Assembly (NCBI GenBank): GCA_024280835.1
Contig: JAJRPJ010000006.1
Span: 1-64,000 of the forward strand
Origin: Candidatus Zixiibacteriota bacterium
Lineage (GTDB): Bacteria > Zixibacteria > MSB-5A5 > GN15 > JACZUZ01
Length of the DNA: 64,000 bases
Direction: 5' to 3'
Shown: in pieces, positions 12,435-56,177 of the stretch
Layout of the letters: each line of letters begins with the position of its first letter
Position numbering within the stretch: the stretch's first letter is position 1
Program-made: the position numbers and the translations under genes
Notes under the pieces: model-generated
Told to the model about the DNA's origin: nothing
The model's database searches: none
What the model saw: only the letters and a program-made list of their open reading frames with translations

Positions 12435-14837
12435 TTACTTCAGTATTAGCAGTTTCTTTGTGTCTACAAAAGTTCCAACTCGCAATTTATAGAAATACAT
12501 TCCAGACGGTGTGTCTTTCGGCTCCCAGACTAGACTAAGTGTCCCAGCGCTTTGTGTTCCTGTGAAGGTTTTGACTGTTTGGCCGCTGATGTTGTAGATT
12601 TTTAGCGAATAGTCAGAGGTAGTTGGAAAGTCTATACGTATAGTGGTGGATGGATTGAAAGGGTTGGGGTAGTTTTGGTATAGGGCGAACTCGGTTGGTA
12701 GGGTTCCTGGGCTGGGTTCGAAGCTGTCATCGACGTGCATGACTTTGCCGTCATAATCGGAAGCGTCAACTGCTAGCAAGGTTCCGTCGACTTCTAGTAT
12801 TTCGCCTGCACTAATTCTCTCTGTACCGATGTCGGCTACGAGTACGCGTGTTGTGCCGTCTGGCTTGCCGACCCACATGGTCATATTGTTTGCCAACAGT
12901 TTTGGGGTCACGTCACCAGCAAACACAAAAAGTATTGCCCCGAGTTCTTTGTTTGTTGAAATCACTTTACTGGTATTTGTGACTTTTATCGTATTGGATA
13001 GAGGAGCCAAGTCATCCTCGTGTATATAGTCGCCAGTTATTTTGCGGATTAAGTAAACCAAATCTGCGACTGTGAGTGGAATTCCATCGCGGTTTACTTC
13101 GGATGCGGCGATTGAGCCTTCTACATGTACACCGAAAGCGGGAATACCATTGACCAAGTATTCTATGAACATACTGGCGTCTGCGACTTCATTGCTGAGG
13201 CCGTTAAGGTTAATGTCACCTCTGTCGTCAATTTCGATTGGACAGTCTAAGCGTACCCCACCATTGTAGAATTCGATTTGCCTATGAGGAGTTGCAAATC
13301 CGTAGCTTGCCGAACACGACGTTGGAATTCCATTTATCCCAGGTAGGACACCGTTCAGGTCTGTGGTTTGTATGTATTCAAATCTATCACGCTCTATTAA
13401 TGTCGAGTCTATATCAAAAACCATATCACTAATGAATACATCACTACCGCTTGTCGACGACAATAGATTGTCACCACAATCAATCCATTTCCATCTCACA
13501 GGAAAGAATGTGCACGCATAGTTTCTATTACCAGTTACTTGAAAATGTAATCGTACGATTTTGCTGGAGCCAGCGCTGAAGTTTGTGTAGCCGAGAGGGT
13601 GATGTGAACCATCGTTTGTCTCTGCAACTGCGACAATTCTTATGGGGTAAAGGCTGCAATCTTGTCCACAGTTCCGTTCAAAACGGAAGGTAAAGTATTC
13701 CCATTCATTGTTTTCGATAAAACCTCCAGCTGAAGCGCCAAACAGGCTTAATCCTTGATGATCCCAATCAATAAGAAAATCTAGGCCGCCAATGGGGACT
13801 GATTCATATTTTTCATCGAGAGTGATAGCTATGTCCACTACCTCACCATGAAACACCTTGTCTTTCACTTCAATGCTTAAGCTAAAATCTGGTTTGACTG
13901 TGGCTGTTACTTGACTTGTGTCAGCATTGCTTGGGTTGAGCTGTTCGCAGGTTTCGGTTCGATCTGTGACTTTGATGAAGAACTTGAAGTCACCGAGGTA
14001 GTCGGTTGTTTGTTGGGTTGGCCATCTGACTTTTCCATGATCATCAATAGTTGGTGTTCCGGGGCCGGCAAAGTCTATGATGGAGTATGAGAATTGTTGG
14101 GTGGCGTGGTCGCGATCGATAGCTCTCATCGAAAATGATACTGTGTCACCCCAGATGACCGATGTGTTGCTGTTCCTTGGCATTTTGAATAATACTGGTG
14201 GTTTGTTTTGAACACCGATTGTCAAGTTGCATGTATCAGATAGGCCGTAGTCATCTGTGACGATTAGTTCAATTGATGATTCGCAAACATGTTCTAATTT
14301 GTCGGGAGAGATATTCAGCAATCCGTCTTCAGTGATTTTTACGAATAGGGCCGAGGCTAGACCGAGAGAGTAATGTAGACTACCTATGCCCAGATCAACC
14401 TCTAAGTCTCGGGCTGTGACTTGTGTTGAAAATGATGCTCCGATGGTCGTCACTATTGTTTGCGGACATTGAATCTCTGGCGCTGAGTTTACAATGGTAA
14501 TTTCAAAGACACAAAAAGTTTCTGCGTCATTTTCAATTCGGGTGGCGACTTCAATTTCTATTGTCTTACCTATATCGGAAACGGAGGGGAAATAGAGGCC
14601 AAAACCATCGACGACCATTTGGACAGTTCCTGAGCCAGTTGTTGTTGCCGAGTAGGTGACTTGTCCGTCGAACTCAGTATCGTCAGGCGACATATAGAAT
14701 TCAATTCCGAAATGACCAGGTAGGGTACTGGTTTTGGGTGGAGGGCATCCCGCAGAGGCAGTCGGAGTTATCGCTAACATAAATATGAAAGCGATAATTT
14801 CGATTGGCTGCGCGTGTTTGAGTGGATTTAGCTTCAT
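12435..14837 (-). CDS. Secreted protein with Ig-like, cohesin-like and dockerin-like domains and sorting tail
   Basis: This 800-residue protein starts with a signal peptide (IIAFIFMLAITPTASAG). Two cadherin/Ig-like beta-domains follow (about 120-330). A cohesin-like segment comes next (about 340-500: 'GGLDFLIDWDHQGLSLFGAS'), then a dockerin-like EF-hand pair (DDRGDINLNGLSNEVADA...VNRDGIPLTVADLVYLIRKI). The C-terminus is a FlgD-like sorting tail (YQNYPNPFNPST...SGMYFYKL...KKLLILK). It is probably exported and surface-attached or released. It is a paralog of the next gene upstream. The palindrome ACTATATATAGT abuts the start codon. Confidence 0.8.
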   Translation of the reverse strand: MKLNPLKHAQPIEIIAFIFMLAITPTASAGCPPPKTSTLPGHFGIEFYMSPDDTEFDGQVTYSATTTGSGTVQMVVDGFGLYFPSVSDIGKTIEIEVATRIENDAETFCVFEITIVNSAPEIQCPQTIVTTIGASFSTQVTARDLEVDLGIGSLHYSLGLASALFVKITEDGLLNISPDKLEHVCESSIELIVTDDYGLSDTCNLTIGVQNKPPVLFKMPRNSNTSVIWGDTVSFSMRAIDRDHATQQFSYSIIDFAGPGTPTIDDHGKVRWPTQQTTDYLGDFKFFIKVTDRTETCEQLNPSNADTSQVTATVKPDFSLSIEVKDKVFHGEVVDIAITLDEKYESVPIGGLDFLIDWDHQGLSLFGASAGGFIENNEWEYFTFRFERNCGQDCSLYPIRIVAVAETNDGSHHPLGYTNFSAGSSKIVRLHFQVTGNRNYACTFFPVRWKWIDCGDNLLSSTSGSDVFISDMVFDIDSTLIERDRFEYIQTTDLNGVLPGINGIPTSCSASYGFATPHRQIEFYNGGVRLDCPIEIDDRGDINLNGLSNEVADASMFIEYLVNGIPAFGVHVEGSIAASEVNRDGIPLTVADLVYLIRKITGDYIHEDDLAPLSNTIKVTNTSKVISTNKELGAILFVFAGDVTPKLLANNMTMWVGKPDGTTRVLVADIGTERISAGEILEVDGTLLAVDASDYDGKVMHVDDSFEPSPGTLPTEFALYQNYPNPFNPSTTIRIDFPTTSDYSLKIYNISGQTVKTFTGTQSAGTLSLVWEPKDTPSGMYFYKLRVGTFVDTKKLLILK

Positions 14838-14862
14838 ACTATATATAGTACGCTATCAATAG

Positions 14863-17280
14863 CTATTTTAGTAGGACCAGTTTCTTGGTGGCTACGAAGT
14901 CTCCGGCTTTGATCTTGTAGAAATACATTCCTGAGGGCAATTCGCTTGGTTCCCAGATTATATCAAGAGTTCCGGCACTTTGGGTTCCTGAGAATTTTTT
15001 TACTTTTTGGCCGCGGACGTTGTAGATGGTGAGTGAGTATTCTGAGGTTTTTGGGAAGTCGATGCTGATGGTTGTTGATGGGTTGAAGGGGTTGGGGTAG
15101 TTTTGGTGTAGAGCAAAGGATGTTGGCATGACGGTTTCTAGAATTGGGGAGAATGCGATACCGTTATAGTTGGCAGCTTCTATTGAGAGCAGGACACCAT
15201 TGGTTTGCAGGACATCACCTGCGTTGATGACTTCGGAGCCAATATTGTAAACCAGAGCCTGTGTATTGCCAGCGACTTGGCCGACTTTGAGATTCATGTT
15301 GGTAGCGAGTAAGTCTATGTCTGCATAACCATCAAAGACAAACAGAGCGGCTCCTATTTCGCTATTAGATGAAATTATTCCGTCACGAGCGGTGATGATG
15401 ATTTCATTTGGCGTGAGAGTTTCATTTGGCGTGAGAGTTTCTTTTGGCAAAGGTTGTGCGTCGCCGACGATAACACGGATTAGATAGACGAGATCAGCAA
15501 CGGTTAATGGTAGACCGTCACCATTGACTTCAGAGGCGGCGATTGATCCTTCGATATGTGAGCCGAAGGCATTTAGGCCTTCAACGAAATAGTTTGTGAA
15601 CATTGTTGCATCGGCGATTTCATTGGAGAGACCATTGAGATTGATGTCACCTCGGTCGTCGATTAAATCAGCGCAGATAACCTGCACTCCGCCATGCTTG
15701 AAATCGATAAAGCGGATGGGAGCGGCTTTGGCGGTTGAGACATCGCAAGCATCTGGCGCCCCAGTTGAAGTTGGGAATGTTTGGTCGGCGCCCGTTACTT
15801 CGGCGCGCATGCCATGAATGATATTGTCTGTATCTGTTCCGATATGATCGAAGACTCTGCGGCTGATGTAAAGAGTGTCACCACCTGTTGATGAAATGGC
15901 ATTGTCGCCACAGTCCAGCCAGCACCAGCGAATCGGCGCGAACTGACAGGCGAGGTTGCGGTCGTTTGAAACGAGGAAAGTTAGGCAGGCGAAGTCATCA
16001 CCGACAACCAACTGATTGTTGGTTGGGTGACTTGAACCGTCGTTTTGGTCGGCGATACCAATGACACGGAGTTTTCCTGATGGGCATCCGCCAGTGCAAT
16101 TGCCATTGGGACCGAAGCGATAGGTGAAGTATTCCCATTTGTAGTCTGGGAAAATGTTGCCTTCGGTGGCGCCGATGAATGAGAGAGCGCTGTTGTCATA
16201 CTCTATTAGGAAGTCAAAACCAGCGGCGGAGAAAGACCCGCCGTCATAGTTGAGGCAAACTTCTACTTGATGGCCTTGCAGAGAGCCGCCTAGTGGAGCG
16301 GTTTTGTCGGTTTGGTCGATACTGACGCAGAACGGCTCAACGCCAATGGCGGTCATTGTCAGGCAACATTCATCGGTGTCGATGCCATCTGTGACACTAA
16401 TACAGACTAGATAATCAGTGTCGGCGCCACCTACATCAAGATCATCGGGTGCGAAGGAGACAGCGCCCGTTGTTGGATCGACAGTCACTGGACCAAATGG
16501 CGGCGGCGAGACAGACACTAAGGAATAGACATGTGTGTCACCTGCGTCTGCGTCAGTGACACTAGCAGGTGGAGAGGTTGTGGCGCTACCTGAAACGAAA
16601 ACAATATTTGGTGGACAGATTAGAGTTGGTGGAGAATTGTTGAGATCGACTGCAGTGACACAAAGCGCTGAGGTTCGTGTTCCGCCGACATTTAAGTCCC
16701 CAGAGCCAGCTTGCCATTCGGCAGGTGAGCAACAGCTTCCATCTGGAGTACCCATTACCCATTCACCTGCGGGTGGAAAGAACGCTGAATCAATGCAAAG
16801 AATACCACCATCAACACCTGGAAAAGTAATTGTAAATCTTAGACCGTCAGTTAAACCAATCGGTCCATAAGCAACAAAATCTGAGGAGAATCCCCCACTC
16901 AACCAAGAACTAGGTAATGTGCCATCGAATACATCGGTTCCAGGAACTAATCTTGGTCCCCCAAAATCAAATACATTTGGGTCGTTCCATAGTCCAACAT
17001 TGTGAGGAGCGCTATTCCATACAATATCTGTCAGAGAGCCATCTGGGCTGTAGAGAGAGAATCCTAGAGTCGCCCCTTGCGTAATACCGTCTGATTCCAT
17101 TTGTACGGTAAAAGTGTAGGTTTGTGTATGTCCCACTTTGAAGTCTAGCCCATTGACATCATCAACGAAAAGAGCTCCCGCTGTTATTGTAGCGGTGGCC
17201 CCAGTTCTGGCAAAAACATCTGGTACAAGCATGGAACAGAGAGAGACCAATAGCGCTAGTTGGACTAGATTTCTGAACAT
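14863..17280 (-). CDS. Secreted cohesin/dockerin-like protein with sorting tail (paralog)
   Basis: This 805-residue protein has a signal peptide (LVQLALLVSLCSMLVPDVFA) and an N-terminal beta-domain. A cadherin-like domain follows around residues 215-310 ('DADAGDTHVYSLVSV'), then a cohesin-like domain (about 315-490: 'AAGFDFLIEYDNSALSFIGA'). Next is a dockerin-like region (DDRGDINLNGLSNEIADATMF...VNGDGLPLTVADLVYLIRV). The C-terminus is the same FlgD-like sorting tail. A short tandem repeat (TLTPNE twice, DNA near 15410-15440) separates dockerin and tail. It differs from its 12435-14837 neighbour mainly in the N-terminal half, suggesting tandem duplication and domain swapping. Confidence 0.8.
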   Translation of the reverse strand: MFRNLVQLALLVSLCSMLVPDVFARTGATATITAGALFVDDVNGLDFKVGHTQTYTFTVQMESDGITQGATLGFSLYSPDGSLTDIVWNSAPHNVGLWNDPNVFDFGGPRLVPGTDVFDGTLPSSWLSGGFSSDFVAYGPIGLTDGLRFTITFPGVDGGILCIDSAFFPPAGEWVMGTPDGSCCSPAEWQAGSGDLNVGGTRTSALCVTAVDLNNSPPTLICPPNIVFVSGSATTSPPASVTDADAGDTHVYSLVSVSPPPFGPVTVDPTTGAVSFAPDDLDVGGADTDYLVCISVTDGIDTDECCLTMTAIGVEPFCVSIDQTDKTAPLGGSLQGHQVEVCLNYDGGSFSAAGFDFLIEYDNSALSFIGATEGNIFPDYKWEYFTYRFGPNGNCTGGCPSGKLRVIGIADQNDGSSHPTNNQLVVGDDFACLTFLVSNDRNLACQFAPIRWCWLDCGDNAISSTGGDTLYISRRVFDHIGTDTDNIIHGMRAEVTGADQTFPTSTGAPDACDVSTAKAAPIRFIDFKHGGVQVICADLIDDRGDINLNGLSNEIADATMFTNYFVEGLNAFGSHIEGSIAASEVNGDGLPLTVADLVYLIRVIVGDAQPLPKETLTPNETLTPNEIIITARDGIISSNSEIGAALFVFDGYADIDLLATNMNLKVGQVAGNTQALVYNIGSEVINAGDVLQTNGVLLSIEAANYNGIAFSPILETVMPTSFALHQNYPNPFNPSTTISIDFPKTSEYSLTIYNVRGQKVKKFSGTQSAGTLDIIWEPSELPSGMYFYKIKAGDFVATKKLVLLK

Positions 17281-34434: not shown

Positions 34435-37400
34435 ATGGAATCAATGAGATCCCATACTCAACATCTTCTCGGCCAATCGTTTTGGTTCGCGATTGGAATA
34501 CTTGCGCTGTGTCCATTAACTGTTTCGGCTCATAACCTCGTTGAGCCACAAAGTAGCTCGTCAGGTCAAAGCTCATCCATTACGTCTACTATAGAACCAA
34601 TATTTCTGACACATCGCACTGGTTCATTTGCATTTACTGTTCCGAATGATGGCACAATTGGTTCTGGCTTAATTGGGAGGTTTACTGATGACATTACTGG
34701 TGTGGTAATTCCGAGTTTTGAGTCTCCTCAGAACTCCAACATAGAATACCTCTTCGCGGGGGCCTTATGGGTCGGAGCAATTGCCGGAGATGACACTTTA
34801 GTGGCGGTTGCCGCTGATGGTTGGGCAGATGGTTGCGCCAATATGACTCCCTCTTTGGACTATCCTGGCGTGAGAGTCATTTCAGGAGTTGGGGGTGAGA
34901 ATTTCGAAACTCAATATAGCGACTCCGTTTTACTTATTGGACATTGCGGCAACTCGGCGTATACACCTGGTCTCAACATCAGACAGAGAAGTCTTGTTTG
35001 GAGCCAAGAGCCCAATAATGATTTTGTAATCATAGAATACCATATTACATCAATTAATCCTGATACTCTTAGAGAATTGTATGTCGGACTATATTTGGAC
35101 GCTGATGTTGGCCATCTCTCGAGTATGTCTCGCCACAGCGACGATATCACTGGTTTTCTGCCCGAGGATGGCATTGCCTATATAGCCGATAATGACGGGC
35201 AATCGTCATTCAATCCGGACACATTGTGGACAGAGAGATCGGCTCGGGCTGTGATTGGCGCAAAAATTCTTGATATCAAGCATTCTGGTATTGGCGATTT
35301 GAATTCTCCATCATTCAATTGGTGGCTTAGCAACGGAACGCCAGAAAAAGATTTTGGCCCACGAATGGCAGGAACAGAGAGTGACCCATTTCGGGATTTT
35401 GGTGGTTTCTTGGGAACTCCAGAGGGCCGAGCCAATAAGTATTATATACTGTCACATCCAGAGCAAGATTATGATCAAATCGAAACGGCGCTTGATCATG
35501 CACCTGCTGGTTGGTTACCTCCGCCAGACAACGGACTGGCTGTGAATTTCGCTAATGGATTTGATGCGAGATTTTTGATTTCACAGGGAGGAATTTCGCT
35601 GGCCCCTGGTGATTCGATGGTATTTGTAGTGGCTATCGCAATAGGAGACAATCTCCATGTCAATCCTACTGACTTCGCTGATTTTTTTGATCCACTTAAT
35701 CCAAGCGCCTTTCATGACAAACTTGACTTTACAGATTTGAAAGCCAACATAGCCGCGGCAGAAGCGCTCTATGCCTCAGGATACAATACACAAGTAGTTG
35801 CTGCTCCACCGAAGCCAACCCTTGATGACAAAAACAGCGAAGAGCCATTGATGAGTTGGCTATTCAGCGCTAATCCTTCGGTTGAGGGTTATGACATCTA
35901 TCTTGCTAAGGCGCCCGATAGCGCTGTACTCTGTCAGTATGCGTTGATTGATACACCTCTATTTGTACCAGAAAACATTATTGCAACAGTAGCGACAGAT
36001 ACATTCCGTTTGACTGGCCTCGAGGACGGAGCGTGGTATTCGGTGGCTGTCTCAGTCCATCCATTGCCGGACTCATCAGCGCCAATTTCTGAAAAAATTG
36101 TCTTCCAATATGGCGTTCCCCATGCGCCAACTTGGGATAGCGCAATGTTTCTTAATGAGGACCAATTGAAGTTCCAGTATGTGAATTCCGGTGTTGCGTT
36201 GTCATTAAGTGGGAATACGCTAGAGTCGGATATTGATCACTTCAATTTGTATCGCCTGAACGATTCTCTGCGTGGGTATTTTGTTATCAACCAAAAGTTA
36301 AGACCACTTCCCGGAACAGACACTTGCAGAACTTACCCCGATGGACCACTTGATGTGGTTTGCAGTGGTGTCAATCGTGATTCGGTTTTGTTCTGCCTCA
36401 CCACTCTCACGCCATATGCGCAAGTCGCCCAGCAATCAATCTCTATCGCTAATAATTTCGGAGCGCCTACAAAACACACTTATGGTATAACAGCGGTAGA
36501 CTCGGTCGGAAACGAATCTGCACTGTCTACTTTTATACTAGGATACACAAATGCCTCAGCTAAGAAACAACTTCTATTCTTGCTCCATGATTCAGTAAGT
36601 ATTCGAGGTAATAGGTCACCAAAGTTGAAGGAAATGTATGAGTTCTATCGAAACCTACTGGCCCCTCATACTCCAGATTTCTTGACCAGAAAGCCTGTTC
36701 GTAGAGAACCAAGAGACTGGCCGCCAACTTATGAAACTAGCGCTCAATACGATATGGTAATCGTCGATGGATCAGCCACTTCTCCTTTGATAAGAGGCAG
36801 CTGGAAAACTCCTTTTGGAGCTTATGAGCCAACCAATTGGATAGTGGATTATACGCGTAGTGGCGGAACGCTTGTCGATCTTGGAATCAATTTTGAAATC
36901 AGCATTAACAGTTCAACTCCTCCTGAACTTGTGCACACCGATTATCTGCCACCCGATACTGTAAGATTCGATCTCGGCGGAAAACTTTTCGGACTAGATT
37001 CTGCTATTATGATTCCTTTCCCAAAAGGTGATTCAGCGCTTGATTCAGTCAATCAATTCTATCGTCCAGCAGGAGCGGCGGCATTAGCAGGCAACGGTTT
37101 TCCGGATCTGACTTATCATCACAGCGGCCTGTATGTTACACCAGAAGAATTAACCAAAGGACCGATACCGTTCAAAGGTGTGATTTTTCCGATCGCGGAG
37201 AACACGGAGGTACTCTATACTTGGGTTGGTGGTCGTGACACTGTTTCTGATTTTGAGGGTTTGCCGATTGGGGTGAAGTATACTCCAGAGACGCATACGG
37301 CTTATGTTTTGATTTCTAGTCCATGGGAGTGGGAATTGGAGCAGGCGCAGGCGTTTTTTGCTCGGATACTTGGTGACTTTCAGACTGATGTGACTGATGA

Positions 37401-37686
37401 GGAGCAGGAGTCGACATTACCTAAGACTTTTGCGTTGGGTCAAAACTTTCCCAATCCGTTTAATCCGACTACACAAATCAGTTACTCGGTTCCGAGGCGT
37501 TCTGAAGTGTCATTGGTTGTCTATAACATTTTAGGGCAAAGAGTGCGGATATTGGTTGATGATGTTAAAGAAGCTGGTGAGCATGTTGTGACATGGGATG
37601 CTGGTGAGTTTGCTTCGGGAATGTATTTCTATCGTCTTAACGCTGGTGAAACAAAGATTTCGCGGAAGATGGTTTTGTTGAAGTAG
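34435..37686 (+). CDS. Large secreted protein with fibronectin-III-like region and sorting tail
   Basis: This 1083-residue protein starts with a signal peptide (SFWFAIGILALCPLTVSAH), preceded by AAAGGAAG. The first ~420 residues are a beta-rich domain of unknown type ('YLFAGALWVGAIAGDDTLVAVAADGW'). Fn3-like segments follow near 460-600 and 620-740 ('PSVEGYDIYLAKAPDSA', 'HTYGITAVDSVGNESALS'). A further domain spans about 740-980. The C-terminus is the FlgD-like sorting tail (FPNPFNPTTQISYSV...YNILGQRVRIL...SGMYFYRLNAG). A surface or extracellular role is inferred. Confidence 0.75.
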   Translation: MESMRSHTQHLLGQSFWFAIGILALCPLTVSAHNLVEPQSSSSGQSSSITSTIEPIFLTHRTGSFAFTVPNDGTIGSGLIGRFTDDITGVVIPSFESPQNSNIEYLFAGALWVGAIAGDDTLVAVAADGWADGCANMTPSLDYPGVRVISGVGGENFETQYSDSVLLIGHCGNSAYTPGLNIRQRSLVWSQEPNNDFVIIEYHITSINPDTLRELYVGLYLDADVGHLSSMSRHSDDITGFLPEDGIAYIADNDGQSSFNPDTLWTERSARAVIGAKILDIKHSGIGDLNSPSFNWWLSNGTPEKDFGPRMAGTESDPFRDFGGFLGTPEGRANKYYILSHPEQDYDQIETALDHAPAGWLPPPDNGLAVNFANGFDARFLISQGGISLAPGDSMVFVVAIAIGDNLHVNPTDFADFFDPLNPSAFHDKLDFTDLKANIAAAEALYASGYNTQVVAAPPKPTLDDKNSEEPLMSWLFSANPSVEGYDIYLAKAPDSAVLCQYALIDTPLFVPENIIATVATDTFRLTGLEDGAWYSVAVSVHPLPDSSAPISEKIVFQYGVPHAPTWDSAMFLNEDQLKFQYVNSGVALSLSGNTLESDIDHFNLYRLNDSLRGYFVINQKLRPLPGTDTCRTYPDGPLDVVCSGVNRDSVLFCLTTLTPYAQVAQQSISIANNFGAPTKHTYGITAVDSVGNESALSTFILGYTNASAKKQLLFLLHDSVSIRGNRSPKLKEMYEFYRNLLAPHTPDFLTRKPVRREPRDWPPTYETSAQYDMVIVDGSATSPLIRGSWKTPFGAYEPTNWIVDYTRSGGTLVDLGINFEISINSSTPPELVHTDYLPPDTVRFDLGGKLFGLDSAIMIPFPKGDSALDSVNQFYRPAGAAALAGNGFPDLTYHHSGLYVTPEELTKGPIPFKGVIFPIAENTEVLYTWVGGRDTVSDFEGLPIGVKYTPETHTAYVLISSPWEWELEQAQAFFARILGDFQTDVTDEEQESTLPKTFALGQNFPNPFNPTTQISYSVPRRSEVSLVVYNILGQRVRILVDDVKEAGEHVVTWDAGEFASGMYFYRLNAGETKISRKMVLLK

Positions 37687-38306: not shown

Positions 38307-38927
38307 TCAGAGTCCGAGAATCGTAGCAACAAAACCCGTTCTGGCGTAAAACGCACGACTAACACTACCATGTCCGGGTCCCTTGGTGCGAGGTTGGACT
38401 AAAGTTCCCATCTTGCCAGTAAGAGCACCAAAACCATCTGCTCGAATAGTATCTCTTACTTCTTCATAATCTTCTTCGACTTGGTTGTATAGTTCCTGGT
38501 CCCCAAGGTCAAACGTGCCAACGGAAATCAAGCGTGATGACAACTCTTCTTTCGAATTGAACATTCGAGCACATACCACCATTTTCCGCAATTTCGCAAA
38601 TAGGTGACTATCTACGAAGGATTTCTGTCCAACATTTATCGGATCAATCATGGTGATCGCCATCGTTTCCTTGGGAACAACTTTACCTGACTGCAGGACC
38701 TTTAGAGGTACAACTTTTAGCTCCCAAGAGCCAAAATTCGGCGACTGGGCAGAGTTTAACGGCAATTCCAAGAATCGCTCAATTACATGCCCCGCCCAAC
38801 CTTTGTTGATTTTGTCACCTCGCCACACCGTCACTTCATATGATGAAGCAAGTTGCACAAGATCTTTGCCGATCAAAGTATTGAGTCGAGAAATGGCTTC
38901 TCTACGCTCCACATGCTTCCCTTTCAA
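38307..38927 (-). CDS. MutH/Sau3AI-like restriction endonuclease
   Basis: The segment 'NKGWAGHVIERFLEL' followed by 'NFGSWELKVVPLK' matches the MutH/Sau3AI nuclease core, including the catalytic E-x-K (ELK). Family members cut at or next to GATC. The aspartate usual before E-x-K seems replaced by Asn in a slightly shorter loop, so activity is not certain. The start overlaps the methylase gene by 26 bp, giving a restriction-modification operon. Length 206 aa, close to MutH. Confidence 0.75.
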   Translation of the reverse strand: MKGKHVERREAISRLNTLIGKDLVQLASSYEVTVWRGDKINKGWAGHVIERFLELPLNSAQSPNFGSWELKVVPLKVLQSGKVVPKETMAITMIDPINVGQKSFVDSHLFAKLRKMVVCARMFNSKEELSSRLISVGTFDLGDQELYNQVEEDYEEVRDTIRADGFGALTGKMGTLVQPRTKGPGHGSVSRAFYARTGFVATILGL

Positions 38928-39753
38928 AAAGTGAAGATCGCTGAATATCCTCAGTTCTTTTCAATCGCTGTTGGGCAACAGAAAAATACTCTTTTTCCTT
39001 TTCAATCCCCACAAATCTCCTGCCAAAACGTTGCGCCGAAACACCAGTGGTGCCGCTCCCCATGAATGGGTCAAGAATAATGTCATCTTTGTTAGTGCTG
39101 GCTAAGACTATTCTGTCAAGTAGTGATTCTGGCTTTTGTGTAGGATGTTTTCCGAACACTTTCTCGTCAGCTCGTGGAGTGCCAATCGACCAAACACTTC
39201 GCATTTGCTTTCCAGGTGCCTTTATTTTGTCCTTTGGAAAATTCCCGTTCTTCATAGCATCGTAATTGAACGTGTGCTTTCCTTTTCGAGATTTACGCGC
39301 CCAAATAATAGTTTCATGACTGGCCGTGAAGTATCTACAAGAAAGGTTTGGGCTTGCATTTGGCTTAAACCAAGAGATGTCATTTAGAACATGGTACCCT
39401 GACAGCTGCAAAGCAAAGCCACAGGCGTAAATGCTGTGATATGTACCAGAAATCCAAATCGTACCATTTGGCTTGAGGACTCTGCGGCAGGCATCAATCC
39501 ATCTTTTGTGAAATTCAAAATCCGCTTCAACCCCTTTGCTCTTGTCCCACCCCCCCTTGTTGACACTAACGGCGCGACCAGCATGACAGGTGAAACCTCC
39601 ATTCGACAGATTATATGGTGGATCTGCAAAAATCATATCCACACTTTCTTCGTGAAAAGATTGCAGAACGTCAAAGCAATCGCCCAAAAAGAGCTTTGTA
39701 GTATTACCGATCTTTACTGCCGGAGTAATGCTTTGAATCAAATGCGTCTTCAT
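38902..39753 (-). CDS. Site-specific DNA adenine methyltransferase, DpnA-like
   Basis: The catalytic motif DPPYNLS precedes the SAM motif 'LDPFMGSGTTG', the order of beta-class N6-adenine methylases. Other stretches ('VSVNKGGWDKSKG', 'IWISGTYHSIYACGFALQLSG', 'PNLSCRYFTASHETIIWARKS', 'GKHPTQKPESLLDRIVLAST') are like DpnA/M2.DpnII, which methylates GATC including in single strands. It is the first gene of the cassette and protects DNA from the adjacent MutH-like nuclease. Length 283 aa is typical. Confidence 0.88.
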   Translation of the reverse strand: MKTHLIQSITPAVKIGNTTKLFLGDCFDVLQSFHEESVDMIFADPPYNLSNGGFTCHAGRAVSVNKGGWDKSKGVEADFEFHKRWIDACRRVLKPNGTIWISGTYHSIYACGFALQLSGYHVLNDISWFKPNASPNLSCRYFTASHETIIWARKSRKGKHTFNYDAMKNGNFPKDKIKAPGKQMRSVWSIGTPRADEKVFGKHPTQKPESLLDRIVLASTNKDDIILDPFMGSGTTGVSAQRFGRRFVGIEKEKEYFSVAQQRLKRTEDIQRSSLFEREACGA

Positions 39754-48330: not shown

Positions 48331-49404
48331 GTGAGCACAGAACAAGAATCGTCGTTGGAATTGGAGTTTCAGGAACCTGATATGAGCATGACACCGAACG
48401 AAATACGAAATGCAGAATTCGGAACTTCGATGCGCGGTTTCAATCGCGAAGAAGTTGATCAATTCATGCAAAAGACAGCCACTGCGCTTGAGGCGTCATT
48501 GACCGAGACAGCCGATTTGCAGGAGCGATTTGATAAGCTGCATGTGAAATACGACAAGCTTGTCGCTATGGAGGATACTCTCAAGTCCACTCTGCTCGAA
48601 GCTCAGAAAACTGCTGACACAATGCGCGCTAATGCTGAGAAGGATGTTCAATTGTCACTTGAGCGCGCACGAGGTAAGCAAGAAATTATTGAAGAGCAGG
48701 CGCGTCAGCAAACGGTGTTATTGCAGGACAAAATTGATGAATTAGATAAGATTCGTTTGGATTATCAGGAGAAGATTCAACAAACAATTTCATCGCATAT
48801 GAAATTGATTGAGGACATTTCATTTAGCGCAGAGTTTCCGATTGACGCTGACAATATAGTTGAAGACAATTCCTCAGATATTGAGCAAACCGAATTGGAG
48901 CCAGCTGAAATAGAAGAGGTGACACTCTTTGAATCTGTTGTTGATGAGACCCAAGAAACAACAGAAACAGAAGAGAACCCGTCACTACATTCGGCGCTAA
49001 CTGATCTTGACGAAACAGATGCAGGTCTTGTCCCAGAAGAGTTAGCGCCACTAGCAACGCCTTCGGCTTCCGAGGCAATTGCTCAGGCAATCGAAAGTAC
49101 ACTTCCAATTGATGGTGATTCAGACGAAAGCCTCTACAAGAAGCTTGCAACAGATGACACTGAACCTGAGCTACAGGCCAACTCAGAAACAGACACTGTC
49201 GAAGAGACTCAAGAAGAGGCAGTTGCAGAAGCAAAAAAGCCAAAGTCCAGTTCAGCGCTAGAGAGCGGAGCTGATGGGATTGTGGTTTTTGGGCGTAAGG
49301 AAGATCGCGAAAAGGCAGTTGAGGAAAATGCTCGTATACTCAGCGAACTTGATTCGGTGGTTGACAAATTTGCCGAAGAGTTGCGCGAGATCGATAGCAA
49401 ATAG
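48331..49404 (+). CDS. DivIVA domain-containing protein
   Basis: The N-terminal DivIVA membrane-curvature domain is clear: 'MTPNEIRNAEFGTSMRGFNREEVDQFMQ'. A coiled coil follows to about residue 165 ('LQERFDKLHVKYDKLVAMEDTLKSTLLEAQK'), then a long acidic, probably disordered region (165-325), and a short terminal helix ('RKEDREKAVEENARILSELDSVVDKFAEELREI'). DivIVA proteins mark poles or septa and recruit division or segregation factors. The start is GTG. The neighbouring yggS is a common partner. Confidence 0.88.
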   Translation: MSTEQESSLELEFQEPDMSMTPNEIRNAEFGTSMRGFNREEVDQFMQKTATALEASLTETADLQERFDKLHVKYDKLVAMEDTLKSTLLEAQKTADTMRANAEKDVQLSLERARGKQEIIEEQARQQTVLLQDKIDELDKIRLDYQEKIQQTISSHMKLIEDISFSAEFPIDADNIVEDNSSDIEQTELEPAEIEEVTLFESVVDETQETTETEENPSLHSALTDLDETDAGLVPEELAPLATPSASEAIAQAIESTLPIDGDSDESLYKKLATDDTEPELQANSETDTVEETQEEAVAEAKKPKSSSALESGADGIVVFGRKEDREKAVEENARILSELDSVVDKFAEELREIDSK

Positions 49405-49637: not shown

Positions 49638-51158
49638 ATGCTCTCTCTCCGTTCAAAAGCGCAAATACTATCTCTGGTGGTATCACTTATCTCCTTGGTG
49701 ACAGCAACACCACTTCTTGCTACAGTACCACAAACAATTACATTTCAGGGATTCTTGACTGACACTTCTGGAGATCCTTTAGAGGATGGCTCTTATACTA
49801 TTCGATTAGTTATTTATGACGCGCCAATCGGTGGCGCTGTTCTTTGGGACGCGGGGGCTCAATCCGTTCAAACACTCGGCGGATTATTTAGCTATACACT
49901 TGGCGCTAATGTTACATTCCCAGCTACTTTGTTTTCTGGACCAGAGAGATATTTGGGAATTTCTATTGGCGCTGATGCAGAATTGTCGCCACGGATTCCT
50001 TTTAGGAGCGCTCCTTATGCGCTAGAGGCGTCACATACCGATTCGAGTGAAGTGGCGCTACTCTCACATACGGCTTTGACAGCGAATCAGGCGGACTCGG
50101 CGCAATTTGCGCAGGTAGCAGGATTGGCGCTATCTGCGAATGTATCTGGTAGCGCCAACTTAGCTGAGTTTGCTGACTCTTCTAGAATTGCGGTAAATGC
50201 AAACAAGTTAGCTGGACTGGCTCCCAATTTCTATTTGGATTGGAATAGTATTACCAATATGCCGTCTGGATTTGCCGATGGTGTTGATGACGGCGCATCA
50301 TTTTCTGCTGGCGGGGGCTTGCAACTGGCTGGTGGAGTGTTTTCTGTTGCGCCATCAGGAATAACCGAACAGATGATTGCTGTCGATGCGGTCACGGCCG
50401 CCAAGATTGCAGTTGGGGCTGTTGGTAGCTCTGAAGTGGAAAACAATTCACTGACTGCAACAGATTTGGCGGCAAACTCTGTCGGGACATCGGAGATAGC
50501 CAATAACTCTGTCACCAAGAATGACATGGCGCCGAATTCAATCGGGGCCGAAGAGATTATCGCAGGAACAATTGACTCATCAAAAATTGCAGATAGTTCA
50601 ATTACGGGAGCCAATATTGCAGCCAATAGTATTAGTCTGTCACATTTGCAAAACAGCAGTTTTACCGCAAACGAATTGCTTGATGAACCAGGAGTCGCTC
50701 AGGTCACTGGCGCTTCATTCTTGACTGTCCCCTCGCTGACAACGGTTTCATCTTTGACGATTACTGCGCCAGCAAGCGGTTATGTTATGGCTTTGGCAAG
50801 TTTTGAAATGAAGGTTGATCATATTTTCGGAGCCGCCTCGCAGGCAATTGTTGGGCTTTCAAATACCAGTTCGTCATTGCCCAGTGACCAGAACAAGAAT
50901 GTTGATATCCCATCCAGCGCTAATACAGGAAGATTCATATCTATTGTCTCTTTACAGCGCATATTTTTTGTAAACGCAGGCGCCAATACGTTCTACCTTT
51001 TGGGCCGAAAGACCACCTCATCAAGCCCAATTTGGTCAACCTTTGATGTGACATTTTCCTTGGTCTATTATCCTACAGCCTATGGAGCCGTTTCTGTTTC
51101 ACTTCCAGTTGACCCCACCTCTGATAGCAGACCAAAAACTGATGATTCTTCAGAGTAG
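49638..51158 (+). CDS. Secreted stalk-and-head protein 1 (decapeptide repeats)
   Basis: After a signal peptide (ILSLVVSLISLVTATPLLA) the N-terminal domain begins 'PQTITFQGFLTDTSGDPLEDG' and is shared with the next three genes. The middle has an A/S/D-rich region, then 11 consecutive ten-residue repeats (DNA 50358-50687) of the form S-[IVL]-x4-[IVLM]-x2-N, for example SLTATDLAAN and SVGTSEIANN. The C-terminal ~130 residues form a beta-rich domain ending 'VYYPTAYGAVS', also shared. The pattern suggests a fibrous stalk with a head. The ATG at 49638 is preferred to 49548, which would precede the signal peptide by 30 residues. No sorting tail. Confidence 0.75.
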   Translation: MLSLRSKAQILSLVVSLISLVTATPLLATVPQTITFQGFLTDTSGDPLEDGSYTIRLVIYDAPIGGAVLWDAGAQSVQTLGGLFSYTLGANVTFPATLFSGPERYLGISIGADAELSPRIPFRSAPYALEASHTDSSEVALLSHTALTANQADSAQFAQVAGLALSANVSGSANLAEFADSSRIAVNANKLAGLAPNFYLDWNSITNMPSGFADGVDDGASFSAGGGLQLAGGVFSVAPSGITEQMIAVDAVTAAKIAVGAVGSSEVENNSLTATDLAANSVGTSEIANNSVTKNDMAPNSIGAEEIIAGTIDSSKIADSSITGANIAANSISLSHLQNSSFTANELLDEPGVAQVTGASFLTVPSLTTVSSLTITAPASGYVMALASFEMKVDHIFGAASQAIVGLSNTSSSLPSDQNKNVDIPSSANTGRFISIVSLQRIFFVNAGANTFYLLGRKTTSSSPIWSTFDVTFSLVYYPTAYGAVSVSLPVDPTSDSRPKTDDSSE

Positions 51159-51254
51159 TCTGTAACTCATTTTTCCACTGAGACCTATCAACCCCGCTAG
51201 AAGACATTTCCGACCTGAGTTGGTTTCAAGTTGATTCAAGAGTAAAGTAATTGC

Positions 51255-51282
51255 TTGACACTACCTGAACATGGACTATATT
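51255..51282 (+). promoter_or_regulatory. Predicted promoter
   Basis: TTGACA (51255-51260), 16-bp spacer, TATATT (51277-51282), upstream of the 51394 gene. Confidence 0.5.
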
Positions 51283-51393
51283 AATTCACAGTATTACTTT
51301 ATTTACATTCTTACCTAGTAAGATATACCGATTTGTTCAGACGAGATACTACTGATTTTTTACTGTCATTTGCCACACCACAGGAGAAAAATT

Positions 51394-52941
51394 ATGAAAC
51401 GCTTTATTCGTGTTATTGCTATTGCTTTAACTGGACTCGGACTTTTGGGTTCTATCGCACAAGCTGCTGTGCCACAAGTCATTAGCTATCAAGGTCGTCT
51501 TACGGATGCAGGAGGAAACCCCGAAAACGGGGTATTCTCAATAGAGTTCACGATTTATGACGCATCGGTAGCTGGGGCTGTTTTGTGGTCGGAAGTTCAG
51601 GTGGCTGTTACTGTTACTAACGGACTCTTCGCTGTAAATCTTGGTACCGTCTTATCTATCAGTGACGGAGTTTTCGATGGCACAGATACCTATTTAGGAG
51701 TAAAAGTCGGAACTGATCCAGAAATCACTCCACGAACAAGGATTGCTTCAACCGCTTATTCAAATCGTATTAGCACAATCGACGGAGCTTCTGGCGGAAC
51801 CGTTACAGGAGATGTGGCAGTTGTCGCCAACTCAATCGGCAACGGACTGAATGTTCAACAGAGCGGTGGCGGTCGTGCGGCGCTATTTCAGAATAATGAT
51901 GTTTCCAGCACTTCACCGGCAATACAGGGAACGCATATTGGTCAAGGCGCTGGAGGCTCATTCTTCAGTGACGGCGGAGGCGCTGGAATCGTGGCTTCAG
52001 CTACCGCTGGAAATGCCGCTGAGTTTAGCGGAGCAGTTCTTAACGGCGGTGATTGGACGGCCACTGATGGTGCTGATACATCGCTGAGAGTTGATGTTAG
52101 TCTTTCACAACTTAGCACCTACGGCGGAGATGGTCTCGAGCAGATTCGTCTTTGGGGTCAGGGCTGGGGTGAAATTTATTTGTACGACAGTGATGTTGCT
52201 AATGACCGCACTGTCAAACTTACGGCCAATACGTCCGACGGAGGAGAGCTTGAACTGACCGATGGAGATGGTTCTTTGACTATTGACTTAAACGGTGGTC
52301 TGACTGGTGATGCATCGGTTGTAATTCCCATTGGCGCTATTAGCGCAAGTGAAACACTTGAAGAAGCAGGTGTCGCCAATCGAATCCAAGGTAGCGGAAT
52401 AGCGGTCTCGGGCGGCGCTGACGTAGATATTCTTGTTCGTACTATTACGGCTCCTACTGACGGATATGTGATTGCATTTGCTTCTGGACAGGTCGATTTT
52501 TCCCATATCAGCGGTGGCTTCACCTCTGTTCGCTTCGCAATTGTTCCTCCCGGCGGAACACTGTTTGCTGGTCCGAATGTAGAACCGACAATCTCGGGTA
52601 ACGCTCCTAGTGGTACATACAGAATTCCAGTTTCCATTACTGCCGCATTCTCAGTTACTGCAGGCTCACATCAGTTTAAGATTCAGGCGGACGAAACCTC
52701 CTCAGGTTCGGGAACCCCGACGATTCGAGACGGACAGTTGACGCTACTATTTGTACCGACAGCATATGGATCTTTTACATCGAATTTGGATCCTGCTCCA
52801 CCTATTGGGCAAGACTCACCAGAGGCCGAATTGGCTTCAGCGAAGCAATTCAACACCAAACGAATTCAAGACGAGGTTAGCGCTATGCGCGCAAAGTTGG
52901 ATGCACTGCAAGATCAACTCGACACACAGACTCAAGAGTAG
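51394..52941 (+). CDS. Secreted stalk-and-head protein 2
   Basis: A signal peptide (IRVIAIALTGLGLLGSIAQAA) is preceded by AGGAG and an ATG at 51394. The shared N-terminal domain follows ('PQVISYQGRLTDAGGNPENG...TYLGVKVGTDPEITPRTRI'). The middle differs from its paralogs: glycine-rich beta-repeats ('GTVTGDVAVVANSIGNGLNV', 'GGGRAALFQNNDVS', 'GGGAGIVASATAGNAAEFSG') and 'YGGDGLEQIRLWGQGWGEIYLYD'. The C-terminal beta-domain ends 'LLFVPTAYGSF', then a short coiled coil ('RIQDEVSAMRAKLDALQDQLDTQ'). Confidence 0.75.
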   Translation: MKRFIRVIAIALTGLGLLGSIAQAAVPQVISYQGRLTDAGGNPENGVFSIEFTIYDASVAGAVLWSEVQVAVTVTNGLFAVNLGTVLSISDGVFDGTDTYLGVKVGTDPEITPRTRIASTAYSNRISTIDGASGGTVTGDVAVVANSIGNGLNVQQSGGGRAALFQNNDVSSTSPAIQGTHIGQGAGGSFFSDGGGAGIVASATAGNAAEFSGAVLNGGDWTATDGADTSLRVDVSLSQLSTYGGDGLEQIRLWGQGWGEIYLYDSDVANDRTVKLTANTSDGGELELTDGDGSLTIDLNGGLTGDASVVIPIGAISASETLEEAGVANRIQGSGIAVSGGADVDILVRTITAPTDGYVIAFASGQVDFSHISGGFTSVRFAIVPPGGTLFAGPNVEPTISGNAPSGTYRIPVSITAAFSVTAGSHQFKIQADETSSGSGTPTIRDGQLTLLFVPTAYGSFTSNLDPAPPIGQDSPEAELASAKQFNTKRIQDEVSAMRAKLDALQDQLDTQTQE

Positions 52942-53010
52942 CGGTAGTATTGACTGAAACATGCATGATTATTTGATACCAAGCGCCCCACAAAAAGTCA
53001 GAGGAAGAAC

Positions 53011-53916
53011 ATGAACAGGATTTGCAAGCGTCTCACTATTACAGCTGGAATGTGCCTAGCTATAGCGGCGACTAGTATTTTTGCGGCAACCCCGAACACA
53101 ATTAACTACCAAGGGCGACTGACGGACGCGGCTGGAGACCCAGTGGCTGATGGTGGCAATTTGATTAAATTCGTTATTTATGACGCTGCTCTCGGTGGAG
53201 CATCGCTTTGGAGCTCTGGGTTCCAGAATGTAGCCACTGTTAACGGACTCTTTACTTATGACTTGGGATCTAATGTGGCGCTTCCCGATGGTCTTTTTAC
53301 TGACACTGGGCGATACTTGGGAATTACAGTTGGTATTGACCCAGAGATATCACCTAGAAGTCAGCTTGAGACTTCTGCCTATGCCTATCATGCGCTTCGA
53401 GCCGACACAGCCTTGTTTGCTGAATCAATGGTAGGAGTAACTCAGATTTTCGATATCGGCGAATCAATTATCACGGGATTCCTGAATGTCCTGGGAACGG
53501 ATTCGATTAACTGCCCCGCGGACGGATTCGTCATGATGAATATGTCGATGGGTATGAACGCCAATCACCTCAACGGCAATGAGGACGTGCTTTTTGTTTT
53601 TCTCTTGGACAGCGCACTTCTCATGACCCCGGATCAGGATGGTCGCACCTGGGCTTTGCCTTCAACACTACCCAATGGATTGTACTCAAATCCTATACAC
53701 CTTCACAAAGTGTTCCTTGTCAGCCAAGGCTGGAATGAATTCAATGTAGTCGGTTTTCAGAATCCAGGAGGTGGAACAGACACTTTCAATTCTCAGGACG
53801 TTACTGTCTCCCTGTTGTACATCCCACAGTCATTCGGTAGCGTAGCAGATGGCTCTCCTTTACCAGCGAGTTCACAATTCAACTCGTTGCCAAAGAAAAT
53901 AGAACGAACAAAATAA
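53011..53916 (+). CDS. Secreted stalk-and-head protein 3 (short form)
   Basis: A signal peptide (LTITAGMCLAIAATSIFAA) leads into the shared N-domain 'PNTINYQGRLTDAAGDPVADG...RYLGITVGIDPEISPRSQL'. Here the variable middle is almost absent and the C-terminal beta-domain ('DSINCPADGFVMMNMSMG...VSLLYIPQSFGSV') follows directly. Length 301 aa. AGAGGAAG precedes the ATG. The next gene starts 34 bp later, so the two form an operon. Confidence 0.75.
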   Translation: MNRICKRLTITAGMCLAIAATSIFAATPNTINYQGRLTDAAGDPVADGGNLIKFVIYDAALGGASLWSSGFQNVATVNGLFTYDLGSNVALPDGLFTDTGRYLGITVGIDPEISPRSQLETSAYAYHALRADTALFAESMVGVTQIFDIGESIITGFLNVLGTDSINCPADGFVMMNMSMGMNANHLNGNEDVLFVFLLDSALLMTPDQDGRTWALPSTLPNGLYSNPIHLHKVFLVSQGWNEFNVVGFQNPGGGTDTFNSQDVTVSLLYIPQSFGSVADGSPLPASSQFNSLPKKIERTK

Positions 53917-53950
53917 ACGAATGAGAGAAAGACCTGGACGGAAACAACTT

Positions 53951-55291
53951 ATGAACAAATTATCTAAACGCCTCATTATTACAGTCGGTCTGTGCCTAAT
54001 TGTTGCAGCAAGTAGCGTTTTGGCCACGGCTCCAAACACAATTAACTATCAAGGCCGTCTAACAGACAATGCGGGAGACCCCGTTGCTGACGGAGCGTTC
54101 TTGGTGAAGTTTGTCATATATGACGCTCCTGCCGCTGGAACGGTACTTTGGGATGCGGGGTTTCAAAATATCAACACTGTCAACGGGCTATTTAGTTATG
54201 AGCTTGGCTCTAATGTTGTATTTCCCAATAATTTATTTGCTGATACAGCTCGATGGTTAGGGGTCACAATTGGTGTTGACGCGGAGTTGGCGCCTCGCAC
54301 AAGAATCACTTCGCAGGCATTTGCCCGTCAGGCGGTTGTCTCTGATACTGCTGGTATCGCCGCTACGGTGTTTGATAATAGTATTACTGGTGTCAAGATT
54401 GTCGACGGGACGATTGACTCAGTGGATATTGCCAATCAAGGGATTGGGGCTGATAATTATGCATTCAGTTCGATAAGTGGGGCACATATCGTTGATGGGT
54501 CAATCTCGGGACTTGACATTGCTGATGGCTCAATAAACGCGCTGGATATTCAGAACAACTCTCTGGGCGGAAATCAGATCGCTGATAATTCTCTGACGGC
54601 AAATGATTTGGCCATCAATTCTGTCGGAGTCAGCGAAATAGCTGCTAATGCAGTTGGATCGAGTGAAGTTATCAATAATTCTTTGACGGTAAATGATTTG
54701 GCCGCCAATTCTGTTGGAGCTTCAGAGATTGCCGCAGGCGCAGTTAGAACTTCAGAAATTCTTGATGGCACGATTGGTGTGATTGATTTTTCGAGCGCCG
54801 CGCTTCCATCGGTTGGGATAACAGCCCTGTCTGGTACGTTTTCTTCGACATCCTACACTACCGTGGATTCAATCGTCATAGTTGCCCCAGGTCCTGGACA
54901 GCTGATGATAAATGTTCAAGGGCACTATTGGCTCGATGCAGACGCCTCTTCAACAACATCTACTCTTGGGAGCTGTGTTTTACTTCTCTCTACCATAAGA
55001 AACTCTTCTTCTTCGCCTGGTTCTCCAAGCACAAGTGGAAGCTGGTATTCTATTGACCCAGATAATGCATCCTCAACGAATGCCACGCCAGCATTTCACA
55101 TGACGAGAGTAGAGACAATCGGCTCCGCGGGAACTTACAAGTATTTTCTCAATGGCAGGACCACCAGCATCGCTTGGCCAGTTACTCTTATCTCACCGAC
55201 AACAGCTACGGTGATGTTCTTTCCGTCCTCTTTGCCAGTTAGCAGCGCTCCACCGACAAGCCAGAATCAGGCACAGGAGAAGAGTCAGTAA
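53951..55291 (+). CDS. Secreted stalk-and-head protein 4 (decapeptide repeats)
   Basis: A signal peptide (LIITVGLCLIVAASSVLAT) and N-domain ('PNTINYQGRLTDNAGDPVADG') nearly identical to protein 3 are followed by 14 ten-residue repeats (DNA 54380-54799), such as SISGLDIADG, SLTANDLAIN and SVGASEIAAG. The C-terminal beta-rich domain ends 'VMFFPSSLPVS'. The ATG at 53951 places the signal peptide correctly; the ATG at 53921 would add ten residues. The head domain is more diverged than in the other three. Confidence 0.75.
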   Translation: MNKLSKRLIITVGLCLIVAASSVLATAPNTINYQGRLTDNAGDPVADGAFLVKFVIYDAPAAGTVLWDAGFQNINTVNGLFSYELGSNVVFPNNLFADTARWLGVTIGVDAELAPRTRITSQAFARQAVVSDTAGIAATVFDNSITGVKIVDGTIDSVDIANQGIGADNYAFSSISGAHIVDGSISGLDIADGSINALDIQNNSLGGNQIADNSLTANDLAINSVGVSEIAANAVGSSEVINNSLTVNDLAANSVGASEIAAGAVRTSEILDGTIGVIDFSSAALPSVGITALSGTFSSTSYTTVDSIVIVAPGPGQLMINVQGHYWLDADASSTTSTLGSCVLLLSTIRNSSSSPGSPSTSGSWYSIDPDNASSTNATPAFHMTRVETIGSAGTYKYFLNGRTTSIAWPVTLISPTTATVMFFPSSLPVSSAPPTSQNQAQEKSQ

Positions 55292-55388: not shown

Positions 55389-56114
55389 ATGAAAAAATCT
55401 CTGTTACTCACCTTATTTTTCAGTCTCTCAGTTTTGTTGGTTGCTGGAAGTTTTTCCAGCCCCAGCTACGCAAAAGGCGCAAAAAAAGAAGCCGCCAAAG
55501 CGGAAAAAACTGTGGCTAAGTCATCGACTACCAAGGCCACTACTTCAAAAGAGACAACCTCTTCAAGCGCAAAGACGGAAAAAACAACAGCAAAGACTGT
55601 AACGAATACAACGGAGTCTTTGAGAAGGTCTGAGGAGCTCTACAAAGCCCACGGAACTTCAAGCGCCGAGATTGAGGCTTTGATACGTAAATATAGTGGC
55701 GCAAGCGCCACATCGAGTTCTCCAGCTGCTGGCGAGCAAATCAACTGGCAGGTAATCGCAGGTGGTGGTGGATCTGGTTCTTCGACCAATTTTGGTGTGG
55801 TTAATGTGATTGGTCAAACTGCTGTTGGAATGGGTTCTTCGACCAATTTCAATGTCAATCATGGTTTTTTGCAGACTTTTGCCTCAGCTGGTTGCTGTGT
55901 AACCGCTGGTGACTATAATAATGATGCGACTTTTAATATCGCCGATGTTACCGCTGGAATCGCGCGTATTTTTTCTGGTGGCGCAGCCCCAAGCTGTCAG
56001 GATCAAGCCGATTTCAATAGTGATAATTCGTTCAATATCGCTGATGTAACCGCTGGTATTGCGCGCATCTTTAGTGGTGGCGGCGCGCCAGTCTGTGGAA
56101 CCACAGGAACTTGA
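55389..56114 (+). CDS. Secreted dockerin-like protein
   Basis: A signal peptide (LLTLFFSLSVLLVAGSFSSPSYA) is followed by a Lys/Ala/Thr/Ser-rich linker (residues 25-75). A region then contains 'INWQVIAGGGGSGSSTNFGVVNVIGQTAVG' and a second STNF motif. It ends with two dockerin-like EF-hand repeats ('GDYNNDATFNIADVTAGIARIF' and 'ADFNSDNSFNIADVTAGIARIF'). The ATG at 55389 follows AAGGGAAG. It closes the fibre-protein cluster before a terminator and could bind a cohesin-like partner. Confidence 0.75.
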   Translation: MKKSLLLTLFFSLSVLLVAGSFSSPSYAKGAKKEAAKAEKTVAKSSTTKATTSKETTSSSAKTEKTTAKTVTNTTESLRRSEELYKAHGTSSAEIEALIRKYSGASATSSSPAAGEQINWQVIAGGGGSGSSTNFGVVNVIGQTAVGMGSSTNFNVNHGFLQTFASAGCCVTAGDYNNDATFNIADVTAGIARIFSGGAAPSCQDQADFNSDNSFNIADVTAGIARIFSGGGAPVCGTTGT

Positions 56115-56142: not shown

Positions 56143-56177
56143 GAGCGGCGCTGATATTTCGGCGCCGCTCTTTTTTT
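56143..56177 (+). terminator. Rho-independent terminator of the secreted-protein cluster
   Basis: GAGCGGCGC / GCGCCGCTC (9-bp perfect stem, 10-base loop) followed by seven T. Confidence 0.9.

Follow-up and report, generated by a model that had tools for sequence, protein, structure and literature searches.

A tandem array of predicted MAT-like adhesive fibres with exchanged tips and a linked companion gene in a Zixibacteria genome

Here we describe four fibre-like genes and an adjoining companion gene in Candidatus Zixiibacteriota bacterium (GenBank assembly GCA_024280835.1; genome 3.31 Mb, 96% complete). They lie in a 64,000-nucleotide stretch, positions 1 to 64,000 of contig JAJRPJ010000006.1, hereafter called the window. 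A first-pass annotation, made from the letters and translations, had placed four secreted proteins at 49638-55291, and this was borne out, with four co-directional open reading frames (ORFs) on the forward strand, all encoding signal peptides, at the coordinates given. The unit formed by the fibre and companion genes reaches beyond 55291, up to the companion gene at 55389-56114 (Table 1). In all four fibres a beta domain of about 110 residues (the N-domain) starts at the likely signal-peptide cleavage site, and a C-terminal domain of about 140 residues (the tip) follows, either directly or behind a stalk. None of the four was found to carry a sorting tail of the type IX secretion system (T9SS) in Pfam and NCBIfam profile searches, again as first annotated; Por_Secre_tail was detected on neighbouring genes at 12435-17280 and 34435-37686, and T9SS tails are common around the array.

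Table 1. Features of the fibre array and its companion gene, by window position. LOO, leave-one-out E value, from a profile built on the other fibres
Feature	Position	Strand	Description
Fibre gene 1 (P0001, 506 aa)	49638..51158	+	signal peptide, N-domain, helical segment, ten decapeptide repeats, tip
MAT-like N-domain of fibre 1	49719..50045	+	LOO 1e-39; NF053851 E 5.5e-7
Decapeptide stalk of fibre 1	50385..50684	+	10 units, consensus like NSLTxxDLAx; period 10, z 8.2; phage tail-fibre PHROGs E 5.6e-16
Tip of fibre 1, modelled as TNF/C1q-like jelly roll	50682..51098	+	LOO 7e-45; Foldseek to BC2L-C lectin 2wq4, TM 0.59-0.66 by target
Fibre gene 2 (P0002, 515 aa)	51394..52941	+	N-domain, Gly-rich beta stalk, tip, C-terminal coiled-coil-like tail
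MAT-like N-domain of fibre 2	51463..51786	+	LOO 8e-32; NF053851 E 8.4e-7
Glycine-rich stalk of fibre 2	51787..52359	+	191 residues, N-domain to tip; no decapeptide period
Tip of fibre 2	52360..52782	+	LOO 1e-18
Fibre gene 3 (P0003, 301 aa)	53011..53916	+	N-domain joined straight to tip, without stalk
MAT-like N-domain of fibre 3	53083..53412	+	LOO 2e-47
Tip of fibre 3, modelled as TNF-like jelly roll	53422..53850	+	LOO 2e-12; Foldseek TL1A, TNF, RANKL, TRAIL, E 2e-4 to 8e-4
Fibre gene 4 (P0004, 446 aa)	53951..55291	+	N-domain, ~14 decapeptide repeats, divergent tip
MAT-like N-domain of fibre 4	54023..54352	+	LOO 1e-47; NF053851 E 3.2e-7
Decapeptide stalk of fibre 4	54377..54796	+	period 10, z 9.4
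Divergent tip of fibre 4, swapped relative to sister species	54794..55246	+	LOO 3e-4; 20-26% identity to same-locus tip
Companion gene	55389..56114	+	signal peptide, linker, 47-aa 'SSTNF..GQT..SSTNF' domain, two dockerin-like repeats
Companion (GQ) domain	55734..55874	+	profile; relatives partly similar to NF058579 'CPR-type pilus protein PamT'
Dockerin type I-like repeats of companion	55905..56111	+	PF00404 E 0.0012, below cut-off
Terminator-like hairpin closing the fibre/companion unit	56143..56170	+	12 pairs, 9 G-C, T run; consensus match only

The N-terminal domain that had been described as common to all four proteins is recovered by leave-one-out profiles at E 8e-32 to 1e-47 (106-157 bits, the best shuffled sequence reaching 11 bits). 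The middles had been read as decapeptide repeats, glycine-rich repeats or absent, and periodicity and residue counts agree: the residues separating N-domain and tip number 212 in P0001, 191 in P0002, 3 in P0003 and 159 in P0004, a 10-residue period stands out against shuffled sequences in P0001 and P0004, and the middle of P0002 is glycine-rich without such a period. The decapeptide stalks match phage tail-fibre families (PHROGs), and the stalk, tip and tail of P0002 recur, at 39% identity, in a protein (L102) that belongs to another family. As for the common C-terminal domain said to end in 'xPTAYGS', it is clear in P0001, P0002 and P0003; P0004, which ends in 'FFPSSLPVSS', is related to them marginally.

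Pfam holds no family for the N-domain, the tip or the companion domain. Among NCBIfam families the sole significant match, found in all four N-domains, is NF053851 (Bdello_MAT_N; E 3e-7 to 2e-6), the N-terminal domain of the fibres of Bdellovibrio bacteriovorus that make up the mosaic adhesive trimer (MAT) superfamily. The same family is matched in 20 of 21 related genomes, never above its cut-off, in none of 14 control genomes, and in 9 of 10 further genomes labelled as several different phyla. An AlphaFold2 model of P0003, built on a 49-row alignment, predicts a confident beta domain here (pLDDT 96-98). MATs are surface-displayed fibres in which a beta N-domain of about 130 residues lies behind a signal peptide and is followed by trimeric beta-helical stalks and exchanged tips of S74, TNF-like, C-type lectin or new sandwich types, 13 of the Bdellovibrio MATs being S74 and 8 non-S74 (Caulton et al., 2024; PMC10769870). 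Two further N-domain copies in the Zixibacteria genome end in Peptidase_S74 (656 aa, E 5e-11; 922 aa, E 2e-16). We therefore call the array proteins MAT-like, based on the NF053851 match together with a division into S74 and non-S74 members like that of Bdellovibrio.

In the models the tip adopts a TNF/C1q-like jelly roll, a fold that nearly always trimerises. For the P0001 tip, the Foldseek search of the PDB returned the BC2L-C structure 2wq4 at probability 1.00 and 4-1BBL at a TM score of 0.62, and further matches were ExsFA/BxpB, the Pgp3 C-domain and the carbohydrate-binding domain of a cyanophage short tail fibre; a sequence search of the PDB with the tip gave no match at E <= 1. BC2L-C, 4-1BBL, TNF, ExsFA/BxpB, the Pgp3 C-domain and the cyanophage tail-fibre domain are all obligate trimers, and TL1A, RANKL and TRAIL are trimers as well. 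The structure 2WQ4 is also the best structural match of the MAT tip Bd2734 (PMC10769870). Two other candidates were set aside: Bd1399 (8okh) is a member of the DUF4360 beta-sandwich family (PMC10792529) and not a close structural relative of the tip, and Birnavirus VP2 matches to the P0003 tip reflect common jelly-roll topology only (TM about 0.25). Many members of the family carry a motif 'YEVDLRELELKA' and a helix-like tail behind the tip (e.g., L091:557-1975), which are not seen in P0001, P0003 and P0004.

The N-domain is present in 121 of the 133 genomes of the phylum, at 1-26 copies each, and also on contigs that the database records label as KSB1, Calditrichaeota, Nitrospirae, Omnitrophota, Verrucomicrobia, Elusimicrobia, Chlorobiota, Ignavibacteriae, Deltaproteobacteria and Patescibacteria. 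The tip family occurs in 91 of 130 genomes of the phylum, and each complete distinct tip (83/83) shares its ORF with an N-domain that precedes it, the stalk between the two measuring 1-440 residues; identity in the N-domain and identity in the tip are almost uncorrelated (Spearman 0.15). In a sister species (G001) the array occupies the same place with five copies, flanked by DivIVA/YggS-like genes on one side and by genes for purine nucleoside phosphorylase, OmpA and IleS on the other. The counterpart of P0001 there is 70% identical over its full length, and that of P0004 is 74% identical in N-domain and stalk with a different number of repeats and an unrelated tip. A relative of P0003 (L007) is 56% identical. 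The sister species also has an extra fibre copy beyond the companion gene (L069:6604-7584, minus strand). In the window, a DivIVA-family gene (48331-49404, E 1.5e-25) stands directly before the array, a position kept in the same genus and family.

Adjacent tandem pairs carry a record of how this variety may have arisen. In every one of the 14 pairs the N-domain shows higher conservation than the tip, at residues as well as silent sites (Wilcoxon P 1e-4 each), and in the clearest pairs (L135, L115, L076 and L061) silent divergence is 0.3-1.0 in the N-domain and saturated in the tip, the silent differences being somewhat inflated by tip alignments at 30-50% identity. The contrast is weak in the window's own tandem pairs. 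Where two parts of a gene pair differ in silent divergence they also differ in age, and for base and tip this indicates that tips were replaced or bases homogenised by recombination. Intrinsically fast evolution of the tip was rejected as an explanation, with weak contrary evidence from cross-genome pairs chosen for similar tips, in which the tip is more conserved than the base.

The companion gene brings a second conserved element to the locus. Its domain, with the consensus ExINWQVIxxGGxxGxSTNYxLxGTxGQTAxGxxxSTNYxLxxGFWQ, is present as a single copy in the genome of the window. Over 18 genomes, 41 of 44 companion domains have an N-domain gene on the same strand no more than 5 kb away, where 0.5 would be expected by chance, although the profile was itself seeded from loci found via the N-domain; in the genomes that contributed no seed, 16 of 18 companion domains are linked by a hand count. 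Linkage holds in Zixibacteria (25/27) and in other phyla (16/17), with 31 of the 41 linked companions downstream of the N-domain gene and 10 upstream, and the linked relatives include L007, L008, L012, L018, L073, L076 and L135. At L135:971-5402 two fibre copies are each followed by their own companion, as if the pair had been duplicated as a unit. The companion is missing from 10 of the 12 genomes of the phylum without the N-domain, compared with 12 of the 121 that have it (Fisher P 1e-7, uncorrected for kinship and completeness).

The ends of the companions are of attachment or sorting types. Most of those in Zixibacteria terminate in dockerin-like repeats, and those of L134, L100, L019, L020, L032 and L034 in a T9SS tail. 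The window's companion scores 19.4 bits against PF00404, for which the cut-off is 22.9, and two repeats are visible by eye. The same genome encodes the T9SS sortase PorU (667 bits) and cohesin-like proteins; those of the latter that were read to their ends carry T9SS tails. Some companion relatives partly match NF058579 (E 5e-9 to 3e-5), while the window's own companion does not; our literature search found no published description of PamT. We propose that the companion anchors the fibres on the cell surface, and we consider this gene to be the new part of the system and the one most worth testing.

Taken together, the array is probably a repertoire of MAT-like adhesive fibres, trimeric and surface-displayed, with heads likely to bind glycans and the companion as a proposed anchor. 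The fibre proteins would be exported by Sec via their signal peptides and three chains would then join, the conserved N-domain staying at the cell, the decapeptide or glycine-rich segment forming the stalk, and the C-terminal TNF/C1q-like jelly roll pointing outward as a trimeric, probably glycan-binding head. Tandem copies would share a base, and recombination, by replacing tips or homogenising bases, would make their heads diverse. The companion may bind the fibre base and, in this genome, use its dockerin-like repeats to hold on to cohesin-like proteins that are sorted by the T9SS; elsewhere it may be attached through its own T9SS tail. The heads would bind glycans of other cells, particles or matrix. 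Several observations weigh against this picture. The N-domains reach 28-30 bits against NF053851, for which the cut-off is 60, and align to its first half only (positions 2-76 of 162), so that we leave strict MAT membership open. The P0004 tip is only marginally related to the others (16.7 bits), tip pLDDT is moderate in the P0003 and P0001 models (mostly 57-88), and the P0001 stalk is unfolded in its single-chain AlphaFold2 model. On the companion side, several fibre genes have no adjoining companion, the scores for dockerin and cohesin are low, and modules of these kinds are found on many of the secreted proteins of this genome.

The strongest competing explanation concerns the companion, which, instead of anchoring the fibres, could help them to fold or to be exported (a chaperone), or could simply use the same secretion route as one more cargo. 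A conserved neighbourhood alone does not fix its role, and since fibres ending in S74 bring their own chaperone, the others may need one; however, dockerin-like repeats and T9SS tails are attachment or sorting modules that would be atypical of chaperones, and we hold this alternative to be rather unlikely, if still a serious competitor. A different function for the fibres themselves, as secreted matrix or sheath proteins whose trimeric rods have heads that bind neighbouring rods or the cell's own polysaccharide instead of foreign surfaces, seems less probable again. The exosporium proteins ExsFA/BxpB are TNF/C1q-like and among the best tip matches, and presence in nearly all genomes of the phylum suggests a housekeeping role, but the exchange of tips, the divergence between tandem copies and the wide range of copy numbers are easier to reconcile with recognition of diverse partners than with a self-structure that stays fixed. 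It is more doubtful still that the N-domain is a general secretion-associated fold whose likeness to MAT is convergent, the proteins being unrelated monomeric carbohydrate-binding proteins: the sub-threshold MAT score and the use of single-chain structure models would allow this, whereas the position of the N-domain directly behind the signal peptide, its pairing, as in MATs, with fibre repeats and S74 tips, and the recurrence of the MAT match under several phylum labels argue otherwise. That the fibres belong to a prophage or tailocin, as components or relics of its tail-fibre set, is highly improbable, and a phage origin was rejected, since the phage-like stalks and the matches of the tip to phage receptor-binding domains are outweighed by Sec signal peptides on all four proteins, which virion proteins lack, by the absence of recognisable tail or capsid genes among the window ORFs, by the N-domain occurring in 0 of 50,697 phage records and 8 of 2.9 million viral contigs, and by the syntenic site among housekeeping genes in the sister species. 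On one viral-listed contig (L088:5830-7438) an N-domain fibre gene overlaps with a companion whose product ends in YLPLVL, which resembles known cellular sorting motifs, and this contig is probably a cellular fragment.

A wider reading can be offered tentatively, with somewhat less than even confidence: MAT-type fibres, with their exchangeable heads, may be one half of a two-part surface system spread over several bacterial phyla, in which the 47-residue domain of a small secreted adaptor grips the fibre base and its tail (dockerin, T9SS or another sorting end specific to the lineage) fixes it to the cell. The MAT authors stated the surface partner of the N-domain to be unknown (PMC10769870), and such an adaptor, if real, would be the kind of surface element they could not identify; the companion offers a concrete, testable answer to how fibres of this type are held on the cell. 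On the adhesive reading, fibres of the prey-recognition type, known from a predatory proteobacterium, would also be present in almost all genomes sequenced from an uncultured phylum, which suggests that non-predators commonly recognise surfaces with heads that can be swapped. Tandem arrays in which bases are conserved and heads exchanged would then be a natural record of how a recognition repertoire diversifies.

Elsewhere in the window, two T9SS-sorted proteins of about 800 residues lie in tandem at 12435-17280 on the minus strand, the one at 14863-17280 being weakly cohesin-like, and both could belong to a cohesin/dockerin surface system. A DarTG toxin-antitoxin pair is found at 5900-6814 and 6817-7770 (macrodomain DarG E 7e-64, DarT E 8e-17), and a type II restriction enzyme and methyltransferase pair at 38307-39753 (minus strand) in a stretch with reversed GC skew.

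The fibres can be set beside several known systems. They share the head-stalk layout of YadA-type trimeric autotransporter adhesins, however, the order is reversed, with the conserved domain N-terminal and the head C-terminal, and the YadA-type C-terminal membrane anchor had no Pfam match in the four fibres, whose C-terminal end is the tip. Phage tail fibres that end in an S74 chaperone or a lectin tip are alike in their stalk repeats and in the Peptidase_S74 ends of paralogues from the same genome, but the array differs in its signal peptides, cellular neighbourhood and lack of virion genes, and its N-domain was not found in phage records. PamT (NF058579) is partly matched by the companion domains of several lineages, at scores far under its cut-off (24-36 vs 240 bits). 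The N-terminal domain of BC2L-C (2WQ4), a trimeric TNF-like fucose lectin of Burkholderia cenocepacia, shares the fold of the P0001 tip; at 8-13% identity it is comparable by fold only, and it does not occur in a fibre with this N-domain. The first-pass annotation had seen in the array fibres or adhesins with interchangeable stalks, a view well supported by the tip fold, the phage-fibre-like stalks, the range of stalk lengths and the differences in copies and tips between species. It had also suggested an undescribed surface system, and had named a match to a described adhesin family as evidence to the contrary. Such a match exists in part, as the N-domain is related to the published MAT, below the curated cut-off; its phylum-wide use, the tip family and the companion gene are undescribed as far as we found. 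Relative to the MATs of Bdellovibrio (Caulton et al., 2024; PMC10769870; NF053851), the array proteins are shorter (301-515 vs about 1,000 residues), fall below the family cut-off in their N-domains, use one dominant tip family instead of many, and are encoded in a tandem array with a companion gene in a host that is not a known predator. They nevertheless share with MATs a signal peptide followed by a conserved beta N-domain, a fibre-type stalk, several paralogues per genome, and exchangeable C-terminal tips that include S74 and TNF-like types, with four non-S74 members in the array and two S74-ended ones elsewhere in the genome.

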